DNA of 64,000 bases from Oceanobacillus kimchii X50. Lineage in GTDB: Bacteria; Bacillota; Bacilli; Bacillales; Amphibacillaceae. The stretch spans positions 2,670,921-2,734,920 of the forward strand of contig NZ_CM001792.1 in assembly GCF_000340475.1 (NCBI RefSeq), in the 5' to 3' direction. The notes beneath the pieces were generated by a model that did not search any database, was not told where the DNA came from, and worked only from the letters and a program-made list of their open reading frames with translations. Below, piece by piece: positions 4,178 to 10,759 of the stretch; position 1 is the stretch's first letter, and each line of letters begins with the position of its first letter. Made by a program: the position numbers and the translations under genes.

Positions 4178-5038
4178 ATGCAAACAGAATTACCACTAGG
4201 CTCAATTGTAACAATGAAAGTATTACGAAAAATAGATACGGGATATGTACTTACTGCATTTGGAGAAGAAGCTTTACTACACAACAAGGAAACAGAAGAA
4301 CAATTGGAGATTGATCAAGAAGTTGATGTTTTCCTCTATACCGATAAACAAGGGAAGATAATTTCTTCTGCTCGTTTACCATTTATTACAGTTGGTATAT
4401 ATGATTGGGCAGAAGTAGTAGGTGTCATTCCAAGACTAGGTGTATTTGTGTCTATCGGTATCGTGAAAGACATACTTGTATCTAAAGATGACTTACCATT
4501 ATATAGAGATACGTGGCCAAAATCAGGTGACCGTTTATTCATCACCCTTAAAGTAGATAAAAAAGGTCGCTTATTAGCTGTGCCAGCAGAGGAAGACATT
4601 ATTGCAAATGAAGTATTTGCTGCTCCCGAAAACATCATTCATGATAAAGTACGTGGGACGGTTTATCATACTGAAAAAGAAGGGGCTGCCTTACTGACGA
4701 CCGAGGGATATCGGGGATTTATCCATCATACAGAAAGAAAGGAAGAGCCACGAGTCGGACAAGTAGTTGAAGGTAGAGTAATTGCAGTAAAAGAAGATGG
4801 TTCTATCAACATTTCTTTGCGACCATTAAAACAAGATAGTCTCGATGAGGACGCGGACTTAATTCTAAAACATTTAAAAGATAATCATGGTACCATTCCG
4901 TTCCACGATAAAAGTGAACCAGAAGAAATAAGAGCTACTTTTCAAATTAGTAAAGCTGCCTTTAAACGGGCATTAGGAAGATTACTTAAAGAAGGAAAAG
5001 TAAAACAAGAAAATGGACAGACCATTCTATTAGAATAA
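4178..5038 (+). CDS. cvfB: S1-domain RNA-binding protein CvfB (YitL)
   Basis: A 286-residue cytoplasmic protein built from S1-like RNA-binding modules and a C-terminal winged helix, as in Staphylococcus CvfB and Bacillus YitL. Visible parts are an N-terminal S1-like barrel (LGSIVTMKVLRKIDTGYVLTA), a second (GVIPRLGVFVSIG), a third (VRGTVYHTEKEGAALLTTEGYRG...GRVIAVKEDGSINISLRP), and the winged-helix end (FQISKAAFKRALGRLLKEGKV). CvfB affects virulence gene expression in S. aureus through RNA binding. The ATG is preceded by AGAAAGGA at a spacing of 9. The gene lies behind a leader that ends in its own terminator, so read-through control is possible. A strong terminator follows. Confidence 0.92.
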   Translation: MQTELPLGSIVTMKVLRKIDTGYVLTAFGEEALLHNKETEEQLEIDQEVDVFLYTDKQGKIISSARLPFITVGIYDWAEVVGVIPRLGVFVSIGIVKDILVSKDDLPLYRDTWPKSGDRLFITLKVDKKGRLLAVPAEEDIIANEVFAAPENIIHDKVRGTVYHTEKEGAALLTTEGYRGFIHHTERKEEPRVGQVVEGRVIAVKEDGSINISLRPLKQDSLDEDADLILKHLKDNHGTIPFHDKSEPEEIRATFQISKAAFKRALGRLLKEGKVKQENGQTILLE

Positions 5039-5041
5039 TAT

Positions 5042-5077
5042 GAAGAGGCGCTCGCTATCTTATGAGCGCCTCTTTTC
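5042..5077 (+). terminator. terminator of cvfB
   Basis: AAGAGGCGCTC...GAGCGCCTCTT stem with a 10-base loop, followed by TTCTGTTTTTT, starting three bases after the cvfB stop codon. Confidence 0.85.
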
Positions 5078-5227
5078 TGTTTTTTCCCGATTCCTGGTCA
5101 CTCATCTCCTTTATGAATTACCACTTTTACTTTTTTACAGAAATAAGGTAACCCATCTCTATTATGAGTTACCAGTTTGACTTCTTCTCTATATTCTCGG
5201 CACTCATTCTCCCACTCCTTACTCAGA

Positions 5228-5480
5228 ACAAAAGCGGAAGCGCCCATTTAGCTAGTTCGTCCCTATTTTTAGGGGTGCTTCGACAAAGGGCGAACTTCCT
5301 CTTCCTTTAAGATAAAGGAATCGTGGTGAGGGAAGAGCTGATGATGATTATCACCGCAATGGTATAAGTAAGACTAAGCCTCATAAAGAGCATTCGGCAG
5401 TCTTCTTTAACGTATATCAATTTCATGAAGTTTCCTATTTTCTGCGCGCTGTAGCTGGACGGCTATTTCTGTCTACGAAA
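5228..5480. repeat. Bacillaceae intergenic repeat, family C
   Basis: Non-coding stretch whose ends resemble a common Bacillaceae intergenic element: AAAAGCGGAAGCGCCC at the left and GCGCGCTGTAGCTGGACGG at the right. Inside are small hairpins such as CCTTTAAGATAAAGG and GGTGA...TCACC. Only one copy is seen in this window, so the family assignment rests on recognition. It occupies most of the gap between cvfB and the next gene. Confidence 0.5.
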
Positions 5481-5524
5481 ATATGACGTCCAAATATTTA
5501 TACTTTCTTACTTTAAAACAAAGA

Positions 5525-5564
5525 AAAAAGCAGAGTCTGCAATTAAACAGATTCTGCTTTTTTC
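5525..5564. terminator. bidirectional terminator
   Basis: AAAAAAGCAGAGTCTG and CAGATTCTGCTTTTTT pair with an 8-base loop. It sits immediately after the stop of the minus-strand 94-residue membrane protein gene and has T tracts on both sides. Confidence 0.8.
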
Positions 5565-7822: not shown

Positions 7823-7990
7823 TTAGCTAGGATCTGGATGTTCTTCTTCGCTTGGATCTGGATGCTCTTCTTCAGTTGGTTGGTAAGTGGATGACATTAA
7901 ATCGAATTTCTCTGCTCCAACGTTCCCAGGAACAATTACCATTACAGTAAGCAGAAAAACGATTCCTAAAAGATAATTGATCTTTTTCAT
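7823..7990 (-). CDS. exported signal-peptide precursor with duplicated C-terminal octapeptide
   Basis: A 55-residue ORF immediately 3' of the HTH-TPR regulator. MKKINYLLGIVFLL...VPGNVGA is a typical signal peptide with probable cleavage after residue 26 (NVGA/EK). The exported part ends with two identical octapeptides, EEEHPDPS at 40-47 and 48-55, encoded by a 24-bp near-perfect tandem repeat. GGGAGGTGA overlaps the regulator stop codon and is spaced 7 bases from the ATG, so translation is probably coupled. Size, signal sequence, C-terminal peptide and position match pheromone precursors of the RNPP group (NprX, PapR, Phr). The mature peptide is inferred to derive from the repeat. Confidence 0.75.
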   Translation of the reverse strand: MKKINYLLGIVFLLTVMVIVPGNVGAEKFDLMSSTYQPTEEEHPDPSEEEHPDPS

Positions 7991-7995
7991 CTTAA

Positions 7996-9285
7996 TCACC
8001 TCCCTTCAACAGCTTTTGTTGTATGGAGTGCATGATTGTAATAGGTAGCTGCTAGTTTGTATTTTCTTTGACCATAATAATGTGTAGCTAATATTTCTAG
8101 ATAAGCAGTTTTCTTCAAATATAATTGTTTCTCATCAGCAAATGGTATAATTTTCTCCAAAATAATTTCTTCTAATTTCGATGATACTTTATTTATTAAT
8201 TGATTATACACGTCTAACTCATACCGATATATCGATTGATCATCTTCTTCCACAATAGCTAGTCCTTTATCTAACCACTCTTTTGCATGAATTAAATCAT
8301 GGATACGATAGTATTCTTTCATCAATCCAATAATTGGGTATAATTGCTTCTCTGGTTCAGCTCTTAGTACAAAACTTTTTTTATAATATTCTATGGCCTG
8401 TTCCGATTGCTTGCATTCAGAAAATAAATATCCAATATTTTGGTAACATTTTGTTTGTAAATTTATATTGTTGATTCGATCAGCAATTTTTTTTGCTTGT
8501 TGGTAGCTGTTCATCGCAGCTTCATAGTCCTGCATTCTAGAATGAGAAATACCCAATAATAAATAACATTGCGCTGTTCGTTTGAAGTTATATTGCTTTT
8601 GATAATAAATTAAGGTTTGTTGAGCATGGATGAGTGTCGTATAGGTTTCTCGAATGTAACTTGCAGATAAGGCAATCATATAGAATACATCGTGTTTCTC
8701 TTCTTTTTTTGATACTTCAATATAAGTTAATCGATCCAACGACTTTTGAAAATAATCAATTGCTTTCTTATATTTCTCTCGTGAAAAATAGTACTGTCCA
8801 ATAAATTTCAACCAATAAAAGGATTCCGCATCTGTAAAATAAGGAGAGAGTAATTGAAGCTTTTGAAATTGCTCCTCTATCTTCTGTTTGTCATTTTGGA
8901 TTAAATAGTACCTTAATTTATGAATTTCAAAGAGATGATTCATATCCTGAACAGTAATAAGTTGTTTATTACTACATAACAGCTTGTATAACATGACTGA
9001 AGAGTTTATATTTCTTAAAAACAAGGATTGAAACCATTTTTGACACAAATCTAAAATAGGGACTTGTCGTAATTGTGTTTCATTGATTCCTAATTTACTA
9101 CAGAGTAATTCTTTTATTTCATCCGGAGGGTCGACATACTTATTCTCAATCTTTGATAAATAAGAAATTGATATAATACCATCGGCGAGTTCGGATTGCG
9201 TCATTTTTTGCTCTTGTCTATAAAATTTAAGCATATAGCCAAAATGCACCAATCGATATTCATCCCCCTCTATATTAATTTTCAT
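7996..9285 (-). CDS. RNPP-like quorum-sensing regulator (Xre HTH + TPR; NprR-like)
   Basis: A 429-residue protein. An N-terminal Xre helix-turn-helix (about residues 12-65, LKFYRQEQKMTQSELADGIISISYLSKIE) is followed by a long array of TPR helices. Clear TPR-like segments include YFSREKYKKAIDYFQKSL, LLGISHSRMQDYEAAMNSYQ and IGYLFSECKQSEQAIEYYK. This architecture and length match NprR and PlcR, which bind an imported oligopeptide in the TPR groove. The ATG at 9285 has no visible ribosome site; AGAGGGGG before an in-frame TTG at 9252 suggests a start 11 codons later, directly before the HTH. The peptide-precursor gene follows after 5 bases, and a secreted protease gene is divergent, as expected for a protease-controlling quorum system. 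Confidence 0.82.
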   Translation of the reverse strand: MKINIEGDEYRLVHFGYMLKFYRQEQKMTQSELADGIISISYLSKIENKYVDPPDEIKELLCSKLGINETQLRQVPILDLCQKWFQSLFLRNINSSVMLYKLLCSNKQLITVQDMNHLFEIHKLRYYLIQNDKQKIEEQFQKLQLLSPYFTDAESFYWLKFIGQYYFSREKYKKAIDYFQKSLDRLTYIEVSKKEEKHDVFYMIALSASYIRETYTTLIHAQQTLIYYQKQYNFKRTAQCYLLLGISHSRMQDYEAAMNSYQQAKKIADRINNINLQTKCYQNIGYLFSECKQSEQAIEYYKKSFVLRAEPEKQLYPIIGLMKEYYRIHDLIHAKEWLDKGLAIVEEDDQSIYRYELDVYNQLINKVSSKLEEIILEKIIPFADEKQLYLKKTAYLEILATHYYGQRKYKLAATYYNHALHTTKAVEGR

Positions 9286-9288
9286 TTA

Positions 9289-9369
9289 TTTTACCATAAA
9301 ATGTAAAAACTCACCATTTATTTTTATCTAAATTTTTTGATTTATCAACCAAATTTATATTTCAATTTG
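9289..9369. promoter_or_regulatory. two inverted repeats next to the regulator start
   Basis: TTTTAC-N8-GTAAAA at 9289-9308 lies just upstream of the regulator gene, and CAAATT-N8-AATTTG at 9350-9369 lies 40 bp further. Both have 6-bp arms with 8-bp centres, i.e. the same 20-bp geometry, suitable for a dimeric HTH regulator. The region is very AT-rich, so chance is not excluded. Confidence 0.35.
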
Positions 9370-9509
9370 TTAGGATAATTTTAAAAGCTGGAAATAAGTC
9401 TTTTACATTATTATTTTCGAAAAAAATAGTTTTACGATGGATTTATCTTCTAACATTCTTATAGTTTTTCCCAACCTTTGATTAGCAGGATTCTCCGAAA
9501 TTTTAAAGA

Positions 9510-9525
9510 ATATGTATAAACATAT
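9510..9525 (+). promoter_or_regulatory. palindrome just upstream of the subtilisin gene
   Basis: ATATGT-ATAA-ACATAT, a perfect 16-bp inverted repeat, lies 16 bases before the protease start codon. It resembles the TATG...CATA ends of PlcR-type boxes (from memory). It could be an operator or a 5'-UTR element. Its closeness to the ribosome site argues against a classical activator site. Confidence 0.35.
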
Positions 9526-9541
9526 CTTAAAAGGAGGAATC

Positions 9542-10759
9542 ATGATGAAAAGCAAAATTTTTGGCGGATTAGCGTTAGCAACTTTATTAATTACTTCACC
9601 ATTGGCCACGGATGCTGCAACGGACAGGAACATCGGGATTGACACAGAAAAAAACCCAAGTATTTCAGACTCTTATAACAAACAAGCCCCTTATGTTGAA
9701 GGAGAAGTTCTCGTTAAGTTCAAAGAGGATATGTCCATGAATATGCAACAAGACGTATTAAGTGATATTAATGCCGAAATTCTTGTTGATGAAAATGTAG
9801 TAGACTCTCCTTTTAATGTTTTAAAAGTAAAGGATGTAGATCAAGTAGTACAAACTTTAAGTAACAATTCTCAAATTGAATATGTCGAACCAAATTATAT
9901 TATGAATGCAACTTACACACCAAATGATCCATTCTTTGATATTAGTTATCAATATGGATTATTTACAACAGAAACAACCTCAGCTTGGGATGTGACAACC
10001 GGTAATTCAAATCAAGTTGTTGCCGTTCTTGACACCGGAGTGGATTATAATCATGAAGATTTAGATGATAAGACGATTCTTGGATATAATTTTGTTAATA
10101 ATAATAACAACCCTATGGATGGTAATGGACATGGTACGCATGTAGCTGGAACAGCAGCTGCAGAAACAAATAACGGGTTAGGAATTGCTGGCGTAGCTCC
10201 AGACACTTCTATATTAGCTGTTCAAGTTCTAGATAGCAGTGGTAGCGGAAGTTTAGCAAATATCGTTGATGGTATTATTTACGCAGCAGATTATGGTGCA
10301 GAAGTTATTAACCTTTCCTTAGGTTGTAATTGTGATACACAAGCAATGGAAGATGCTGTCGATTATGCTTGGGATAGTGGTTCTGTAGTTGTAGCAGCAG
10401 CAGGAAATAGTAGTACGTCTACAACATTTGAACCAGCATCATATGATAATGCTATCGCAGTTGGAGCAGTTGATGAAAATAATAATATAGCTAGCTTTTC
10501 AAACTATGGAAGTTGGGTGGATGTAACTGCACCAGGTGTTGAAATTGCAGGAACATACCCATCAAATAGATATGTCTATTTATCAGGAACTTCAATGGCT
10601 TCTCCACACGTTGCTGGTTTAGCTGCATTACTCGCCTCACAAGGTAAAGATAATAGCGAGGTTCGTCGTTCGATTGAAAATACAGCAACACCAATTAGCG
10701 GAACAGGTTATTACTTCCAACATGGATTAATCAATTCATTTGATGCAGTAAACTATTAA
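9542..10759 (+). CDS. secreted subtilisin-like serine protease (S8)
   Basis: Extracellular protease precursor of 405 residues. The start is the ATG at 9542 behind AAAAGGAGGAATC. The signal peptide is MMKSKIFGGLALATLLITSP...ATDAA. An I9-type propeptide/inhibitor follows (GEVLVKFKEDMS...IEYVEPNY), then the S8 domain with catalytic Asp164 (VLDTGVD), His197 (GHGTHVAGT) and Ser351 (GTSMASPHVAG). The pair CNC in LGCNCDTQAM is unusual for a secreted subtilase. The gene is divergent from the HTH-TPR regulator and peptide gene, which are its likely controllers by analogy to NprR-controlled proteases. A terminator follows. Confidence 0.95.
   Translation: MMKSKIFGGLALATLLITSPLATDAATDRNIGIDTEKNPSISDSYNKQAPYVEGEVLVKFKEDMSMNMQQDVLSDINAEILVDENVVDSPFNVLKVKDVDQVVQTLSNNSQIEYVEPNYIMNATYTPNDPFFDISYQYGLFTTETTSAWDVTTGNSNQVVAVLDTGVDYNHEDLDDKTILGYNFVNNNNNPMDGNGHGTHVAGTAAAETNNGLGIAGVAPDTSILAVQVLDSSGSGSLANIVDGIIYAADYGAEVINLSLGCNCDTQAMEDAVDYAWDSGSVVVAAAGNSSTSTTFEPASYDNAIAVGAVDENNNIASFSNYGSWVDVTAPGVEIAGTYPSNRYVYLSGTSMASPHVAGLAALLASQGKDNSEVRRSIENTATPISGTGYYFQHGLINSFDAVNY

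Follow-up and report, generated by a model that had tools for sequence, protein, structure and literature searches.

A putative NprR-like peptide quorum-sensing locus with a tandem-octapeptide precursor and a divergent subtilase gene in Oceanobacillus kimchii X50

A three-gene locus of Oceanobacillus kimchii X50 is, as read from its sequence, a unit for peptide quorum sensing that belongs to the NprR/Rap branch of RRNPP and has the architecture of NprR-NprX. It was found in a stretch of 64,000 nucleotides (NZ_CM001792.1, positions 2,670,921 to 2,734,920), hereafter the window, and its features are listed in Table 1. The three genes proposed in the first-pass annotation, namely an HTH-TPR receptor, a 55-aa exported propeptide with two EEEHPDPS octapeptides and a divergent S8 protease, were all recovered as open reading frames. 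The 5-base gap between the first two was confirmed as well, with the ribosome site of the propeptide overlapping the last codons of the receptor gene. The propeptide ends in EEEHPDPSEEEHPDPS (EEEHPDPS twice), and the likely start codon of the protease, which is divergent from the receptor, is preceded by AAAGGAGG.

Table 1 Coordinates of the three-gene locus and its candidate operator in the window.
Feature	Position	Strand	Detail
Receptor, HTH (HTH_3) + TPR superhelix, NprR/Rap-like	7996..9252	-	418 aa from TTG 9252
Receptor, alternative frame	7996-9285	-	429 aa from first ATG, 9285
Sec-type pheromone precursor	7823..7990	-	55 aa, ATG 5 nt past receptor stop
First EEEHPDPS copy	7850..7873	-
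Second EEEHPDPS copy	7826..7849	-	two silent differences from the first
Left candidate operator half-site, TTTCGAAAA	9415..9423	+	7/9 match to TTGGGAAAA
Right candidate operator half-site, TTTTCCCAA, exact	9466..9474	+	67 bp before protease start codon
Secreted S8 (subtilase) protease, Fervidolysin-type prodomain	9542..10759	+	likely start ATG 9542; proposed target and possible pheromone-processing enzyme

A regulator of 429 aa had been proposed. That reading frame is present, whereas the protein itself probably starts at the TTG and has 418 aa, because the DNA upstream of the TTG contains indels in the sister species O. iheyensis and because the 418-aa protein of that species begins at the same residue. 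In O. iheyensis all three genes are present, 88% identical at the DNA level, and the octapeptide occurs three times.

When the receptor was searched against the NprR, PlcR and Rap families, a check suggested in the first-pass annotation, it fell into the NprR/Rap branch, with 26-28% identity to NprR over 77-79% of the query. An HTH_3 domain (residues 19-70, E 9.9e-9) precedes the TPR superhelix, the domain order expected of RRNPP(A) receptors other than Rap. Rap proteins lack an HTH domain, and the receptor does not share the absence of a DNA-binding domain that marks them. Its best PDB sequence match was RapF, and in the structure comparison Rap and NprR structures tied in Z; PlcR (3u3w, 280 residues) was a weak Foldseek match at rank 40 with a TM of 0.33. 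In a phylogenetic tree without Rap rows, from which 16 genus loci had been left out beforehand as duplicates or partial, the two NprR sequences used as the root sat on a long branch. Receptor N283 corresponds to NprR N275 and to RapF N227, to which excerpts of PMC3601957 assign a peptide-binding role; it was invariant in 33 of 33 sequences and Asn in 178 of 189 in the wider set. Furthermore, the NprR tetramer residues Y223 and F225, named as such in excerpts of PMC4970707, are kept as Y232 and F234, with Tyr in the first column in 179 and Phe in the second in 95 of the 189 receptors.

Receptor relatives were present in 25 of 28 genomes of the genus (E 1e-40), 115 of 159 of the family and 153 of 397 of the order (1e-35), and a single weak match was obtained among 50,697 phage records. 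A named scan of the relatives kept 80 of 308, and 80 extra regions were hand-picked from the relative lists for spread over genera. By a fixed rule, a propeptide was assigned to 82 of the 96 receptors of the first set, with a median start 14 nt past the receptor stop, and to 79 of the 93 in the held-out set. Conservation of the small ORF beside the regulator, on which the earlier reading depended, was thus found at 161 of 189 related receptors. Thinning of the first set was purely manual, so near-identical pairs remain (L023/L121, L106/L109), and its cores at L012 and L112 were likewise assigned manually; the held-out set, thinned with a 90% identity limit, includes L128, L188 and L189, which had been seen earlier, and L188, L189 and L269, which were reached through or known from the S8 search. 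The window genome also encodes two receptor paralogues (L003 and L004) lacking an adjacent propeptide by the same rule, in likeness to the 'eavesdroppers' of PMC9765709. In Virgibacillus chiguensis there are at least four pairs of receptor and pheromone, which differ in their cores (L091, L115, L118 and L124).

The O. iheyensis precursor reads EEEHPDPS-EEEHPEPS-EEEHPDPS. Pooling the two species gives five octapeptide copies, in which seven nucleotide sites vary, six silently and one changing D to E (pS 0.75 versus pN 0.02); six silent sites out of seven have P=1.3e-4 if the silent fraction is 1/6 and 1.3e-3 if it is 1/4. Because the sister species has three copies and six of the seven variable sites are silent, the tandem octapeptide is judged not to be due to chance. 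Since the copies diverge nearly silently, selection also looks to act on the peptides and not just on the DNA. That the small ORF encodes a short secreted or spurious peptide and no pheromone precursor is extremely improbable: TIGR04429 (Phr_nterm) scored 21.7 bits on the propeptide, below the 25-bit cutoff, and a Pfam search of the 55-aa ORF returned no match, but against this reading stand its conserved place and leader, the near-silent divergence of its copies, the covariation with the receptor groove described below, and an [HE]P core after residue 20 in 68 of the 82 first-set propeptides, compared with a mean of 26.8 and a maximum of 37 in 500 shuffles.

Tandem copies recur among the relatives, 39 of 161 precursors holding two or more by our own counting rule. 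Several copies of a mature peptide per precursor are familiar from RRNPPA propeptides (PMC9765709, PMC11343458 and PMC5199041), with up to six copies mentioned in the first and nprX duplications in the last. Unlike these, six relatives reach 8-12 copies by our counting rule (L220, L245, L254, L053, L128 and L231), the window precursor itself having two. The paralogous O. iheyensis precursor at L128 contains ten copies, each with AMDKHPGVL; nine match VAMDKHPGVL, a choice that fixes the amino acids of those nine, and they differ silently (pS 0.32). In the window genome, a paralogous receptor (L002/L130) is followed by a long tandem precursor with the repeat unit NEVASDLVPGVLSSG, of which three complete copies and the beginning of another precede a masked stretch.

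The signal had been described as acidic, containing His and Pro, present twice and distinct from the NprX type SKPDIVG, and E-E-H-P-D-P-S in two copies bore this out. Receptor alignment columns were tested against H or E before the pheromone proline, and the best of the 1525 tests in the first set was residue 210, with Lys in 46 of 47 E-P receptors versus 4 of 21 H-P receptors (p=2.2e-11). The association recurred at held-out loci (17 of 23 versus 1 of 25, p=4.2e-7, the E-P counts including L264, L277 and L282, whose residue before the core proline differs) and without the previously seen or S8-derived loci (p=1.2e-7), giving 63 of 70 versus 5 of 46 in the combined sets. By a rough rule and with many close kin, the receptors of F-P peptides had Arg (8/8) and those of Q-P peptides Lys (6/6) at this position; by the same rule, Y-P receptors had Arg (6) or Gln (4) and L-P receptors were mixed. 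Phylogenetically independent pairs were few, all in one direction where they differed: nine in the first set, 5.5 differing on average (sign test median p 0.03), and 12 in the combined set, five differing (median p 0.06). Among the columns listed, 143, 213 and 280, as printed in a numbering in which residue 210 ran one high, covaried more weakly, with few independent pairs.

In the window receptor this residue is Y210, aligned with NprR H201. According to excerpts of PMC4970707, the K of bound SSKPDIVG, which precedes the proline, stacks on NprR H201 and W167; W167 corresponds to receptor Y172, where 155 of the 189 receptors have Tyr or Phe. RapF Tyr153, a PhrF contact in the excerpted text of PMC3601957, shares the column of residue 210 in the alignment. 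Residue 210 is therefore likely a specificity residue for the receptor's own pheromone; the rule was found blind, held up on held-out pairs and coincides with a described NprR-NprX contact, and it offers a testable account of how an RRNPP receptor distinguishes its own pheromone from other pheromones.

Counting the window and its sister, 27 of the 170 receptors in the thinned sets were flanked by S8 genes. In the surveyed flanks 32 of 206 loci had one, near-duplicates included, where 1.4 would be expected at the density of the window genome (5 matches) and 4.0 if a density of 15 per 4 Mb is assumed. Among the 38 S8 genes listed, with repeats of one locus included, 24 were divergent upstream of the receptor. 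The neighbours match either the window protease (29-64% identity outside the sister species) or a paralogue from the same genome (31-38%), and several S8 types are therefore involved. At G105 the divergent arrangement is repeated with a 62-64% identical protease and no exact half-site of the motif described below. Starting from relatives of the window protease (L131-L187), four of which are only 35-40% identical to it, a receptor lay within 1.5 kb at 3 of 57 loci, one being the sister. Receptor-protease adjacency was shared only with the sister in a 28-genome sample of the genus, and adjacency as a genus-wide rule was rejected. Read from gene order, protease adjacency is a feature of some members of the wider receptor family and is not tied to one protease orthologue.

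S8 neighbours were commoner with H-P peptides, in the first set (5 of 17 versus 1 of 58, p=0.0018) as well as in the held-out set (12 of 25 versus 7 of 54, p=0.0014; p=0.004 without the three loci known from S8). This association would also suit a protease that mainly matures the pheromone and is kept beside its substrate without being a receptor target, and extracellular proteases do mature tandem RRNPP propeptides according to parts of PMC11343458. We nevertheless regard this as distinctly unlikely, because 13 of the 25 held-out H-P loci have no S8 neighbour and because the exact motif pairs described below precede S8 genes, including some whose other tested neighbours are non-receptors (e.g. 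L337, L362, L363 and L364).

Inspection of the receptor-S8 intergenic regions revealed repeated TTTTCCCAA and TTGGGAAAA. The 450 nt preceding each receptor frame were scanned together with the frame's first 60 nt. Exact half-sites turned up at 11 of 15 loci with a divergent S8 gene (shuffles 0.35), at 3 of the 12 where S8 lies elsewhere (shuffles 0.15) and at 43 of the 143 lacking S8 (shuffles 2.35). As it was in the divergent S8 loci that the motif came to light, their figures are no independent test, which is provided by the other two sets and by a scan of 397 genomes. In each of the three sets, the distribution of inverted partners had its peak at an offset of 51-52 bp (z 9.0, 5.9 and 6.7), and a partner of at least 7/9 at 51 or 52 accompanied 22 of 24, 28 of 54 and 5 of 17 sites. 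Exact pairs with 40-45 bases between the halves occurred in 47 of the 397 genomes (117 sites versus 2 for a reversed control), 42 of which carry a receptor, compared with 153 of 397 overall (Fisher 1.9e-14). Relatives of the window protease had an exact half-site in 15 of 53 upstream regions, sister included. Four of the 15 divergent S8 loci had no exact half-site, among them L188, the closest parallel, and among the genomes sampled from the window's own family, 17 with its own included, not one had an exact pair.

The pair in the window is degenerate, with a 7/9 left half and the halves offset by 51 bp; by composition, a 7/9 partner at this offset has a probability of 0.003. O. iheyensis has the same halves at the same offset, also 67 bp from the protease start codon. 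The left part of the pattern TTKSGAAAA-N40-45-TTTTCCCAA was chosen to match the left half in the window. This pattern has a single occurrence in the window genome, at 9415-9474, and its control none. Taken as a sequence signal, the motif pair marks receptor and S8 promoters and is likely the operator of the receptor. It could alternatively belong to another regulator of extracellular proteases and lie near receptors by happenstance. One site from each of 30 of the 47 genomes, several of them close kin, was fetched (the first in each case): the receptor adjoined 10, an S8 gene 15 and either of them 21, four lay inside other genes and five faced other genes. In 20 hand-chosen regions, the pair was associated with S8, Rap-like, DJ-1/PfpI, PhoX and metallo-beta-lactamase-fold protein genes. 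Pairs facing DJ-1/PfpI, PhoX or other genes, and the five of 47 pair genomes without a receptor at E 1e-35, would suit another regulator, which the presence of a receptor in the remaining 42 and the enrichment of half-sites before receptors without S8 neighbours make very unlikely.

Because L367 and L368, the only receptors at 42% to NprR in the 397 genomes, have no such pair, the operator is proposed for NprR-like receptors and not extended to NprR itself; its spacing fits the tetramer idea, since according to PMC4970707 the NprR-NprX tetramer suggests simultaneous binding to two DNA sites. In the literature covered, mostly without subscription papers, no such motif was found tied to NprR; TTGGGAAAA and NprR both occur in PMC9426450, a streptococcal paper. 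An operator of this kind may make the protease regulon predictable from sequence in many non-model bacilli. Genomes of one family (f46, L347-L360) have three to seven exact pairs each, and those inspected adjoin genes for receptors, S8, Rap-like and DJ-1/PfpI proteins and PhoX; together they outline a small regulon amenable to mapping.

We consider it probable that the three genes form a quorum-sensing unit working like NprR-NprX. The first-pass proposal of an RNPP sensing circuit gains support from the architecture, conservation, covariation, operator-like pair and gene neighbourhood seen here; export, maturation, import, binding, tetramer formation and direction of control would follow NprR and Rap. 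The precursor would be exported by Sec, processed extracellularly to a short peptide of about E-E-H-P-D-P-S, each precursor yielding two signals, and returned by oligopeptide permeases (the window genome encodes nine SBP_bac_5 proteins). The peptide would then sit in the TPR groove of the receptor, with its residue before the proline contacting residue 210 and Asn283 holding its backbone, and the peptide-bound receptor would form a tetramer that bridges the inverted half-sites across about 51 bp and activates the divergent S8 protease gene.

The peptide might instead inhibit the receptor, as in Rap and AimR, whose peptides usually inhibit according to excerpts of PMC11343458; the free receptor would hold the protease promoter until the returning peptide releases it. 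The RapF match favours such inhibition, and a repressor could equally occupy the half-sites. It appears unlikely, since an HTH domain is present in the receptor, the residues of the NprR tetramer are retained, the paired sites fit a peptide-induced tetramer, and of the four residues by which NprR contacts Spo0F three differ here (D107, Y118 and E188 align with V112, K123 and K197).

Activation as in NprR-NprX of the Bacillus cereus group remains the preferred reading, with which the locus shares a receptor of an HTH and nine TPRs followed by an exported propeptide, the pheromone core x-P-D, the contact column (H201 = Y210), the tetramer residues and a secreted protease as presumed output. It differs from that system in its peptide and copy number and in having an S8 subtilase where NprA is known for NprR. 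Rap-Phr systems (RapF-PhrF, RapJ-CSF) are unlike it in that Rap proteins act on protein targets, as stated in parts of PMC11343458. The locus can thus be described as an NprR-like circuit with a new pheromone, whose regulation step we infer. In PlcR-PapR, an HTH-TPR receptor and an exported peptide turn on secreted enzymes; the locus resembles it in both components, PlcR being the smaller protein.

More tentatively, and with less than even confidence, the locus may represent a Bacillales-wide NprR-like family with a one-residue pheromone-receptor code (the residue before the proline versus residue 210), a long-range operator whose two inverted half-sites stand five helical turns from each other and would be bridged by the peptide-bound tetramer, and a subtilase as core output that would also mature the multi-copy precursors and so close a positive loop.

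The palindrome ATATGTATAAACATAT before the ribosome site of the protease, which we take to resemble the PlcR box, was dropped, one right-arm base differing in the sister species, and shared 5-mer dyads were not clearly above shuffles (at most 3 of 14 sequences, a number also reached in 10 of 60 shuffles). Positions 5030-5560 of the window contain no direct repeat of 18 nt or more; their counterpart in O. iheyensis (L033:5232-5462) is an intergenic tandem repeat of 51-52 nt upstream of a 579-aa gene.
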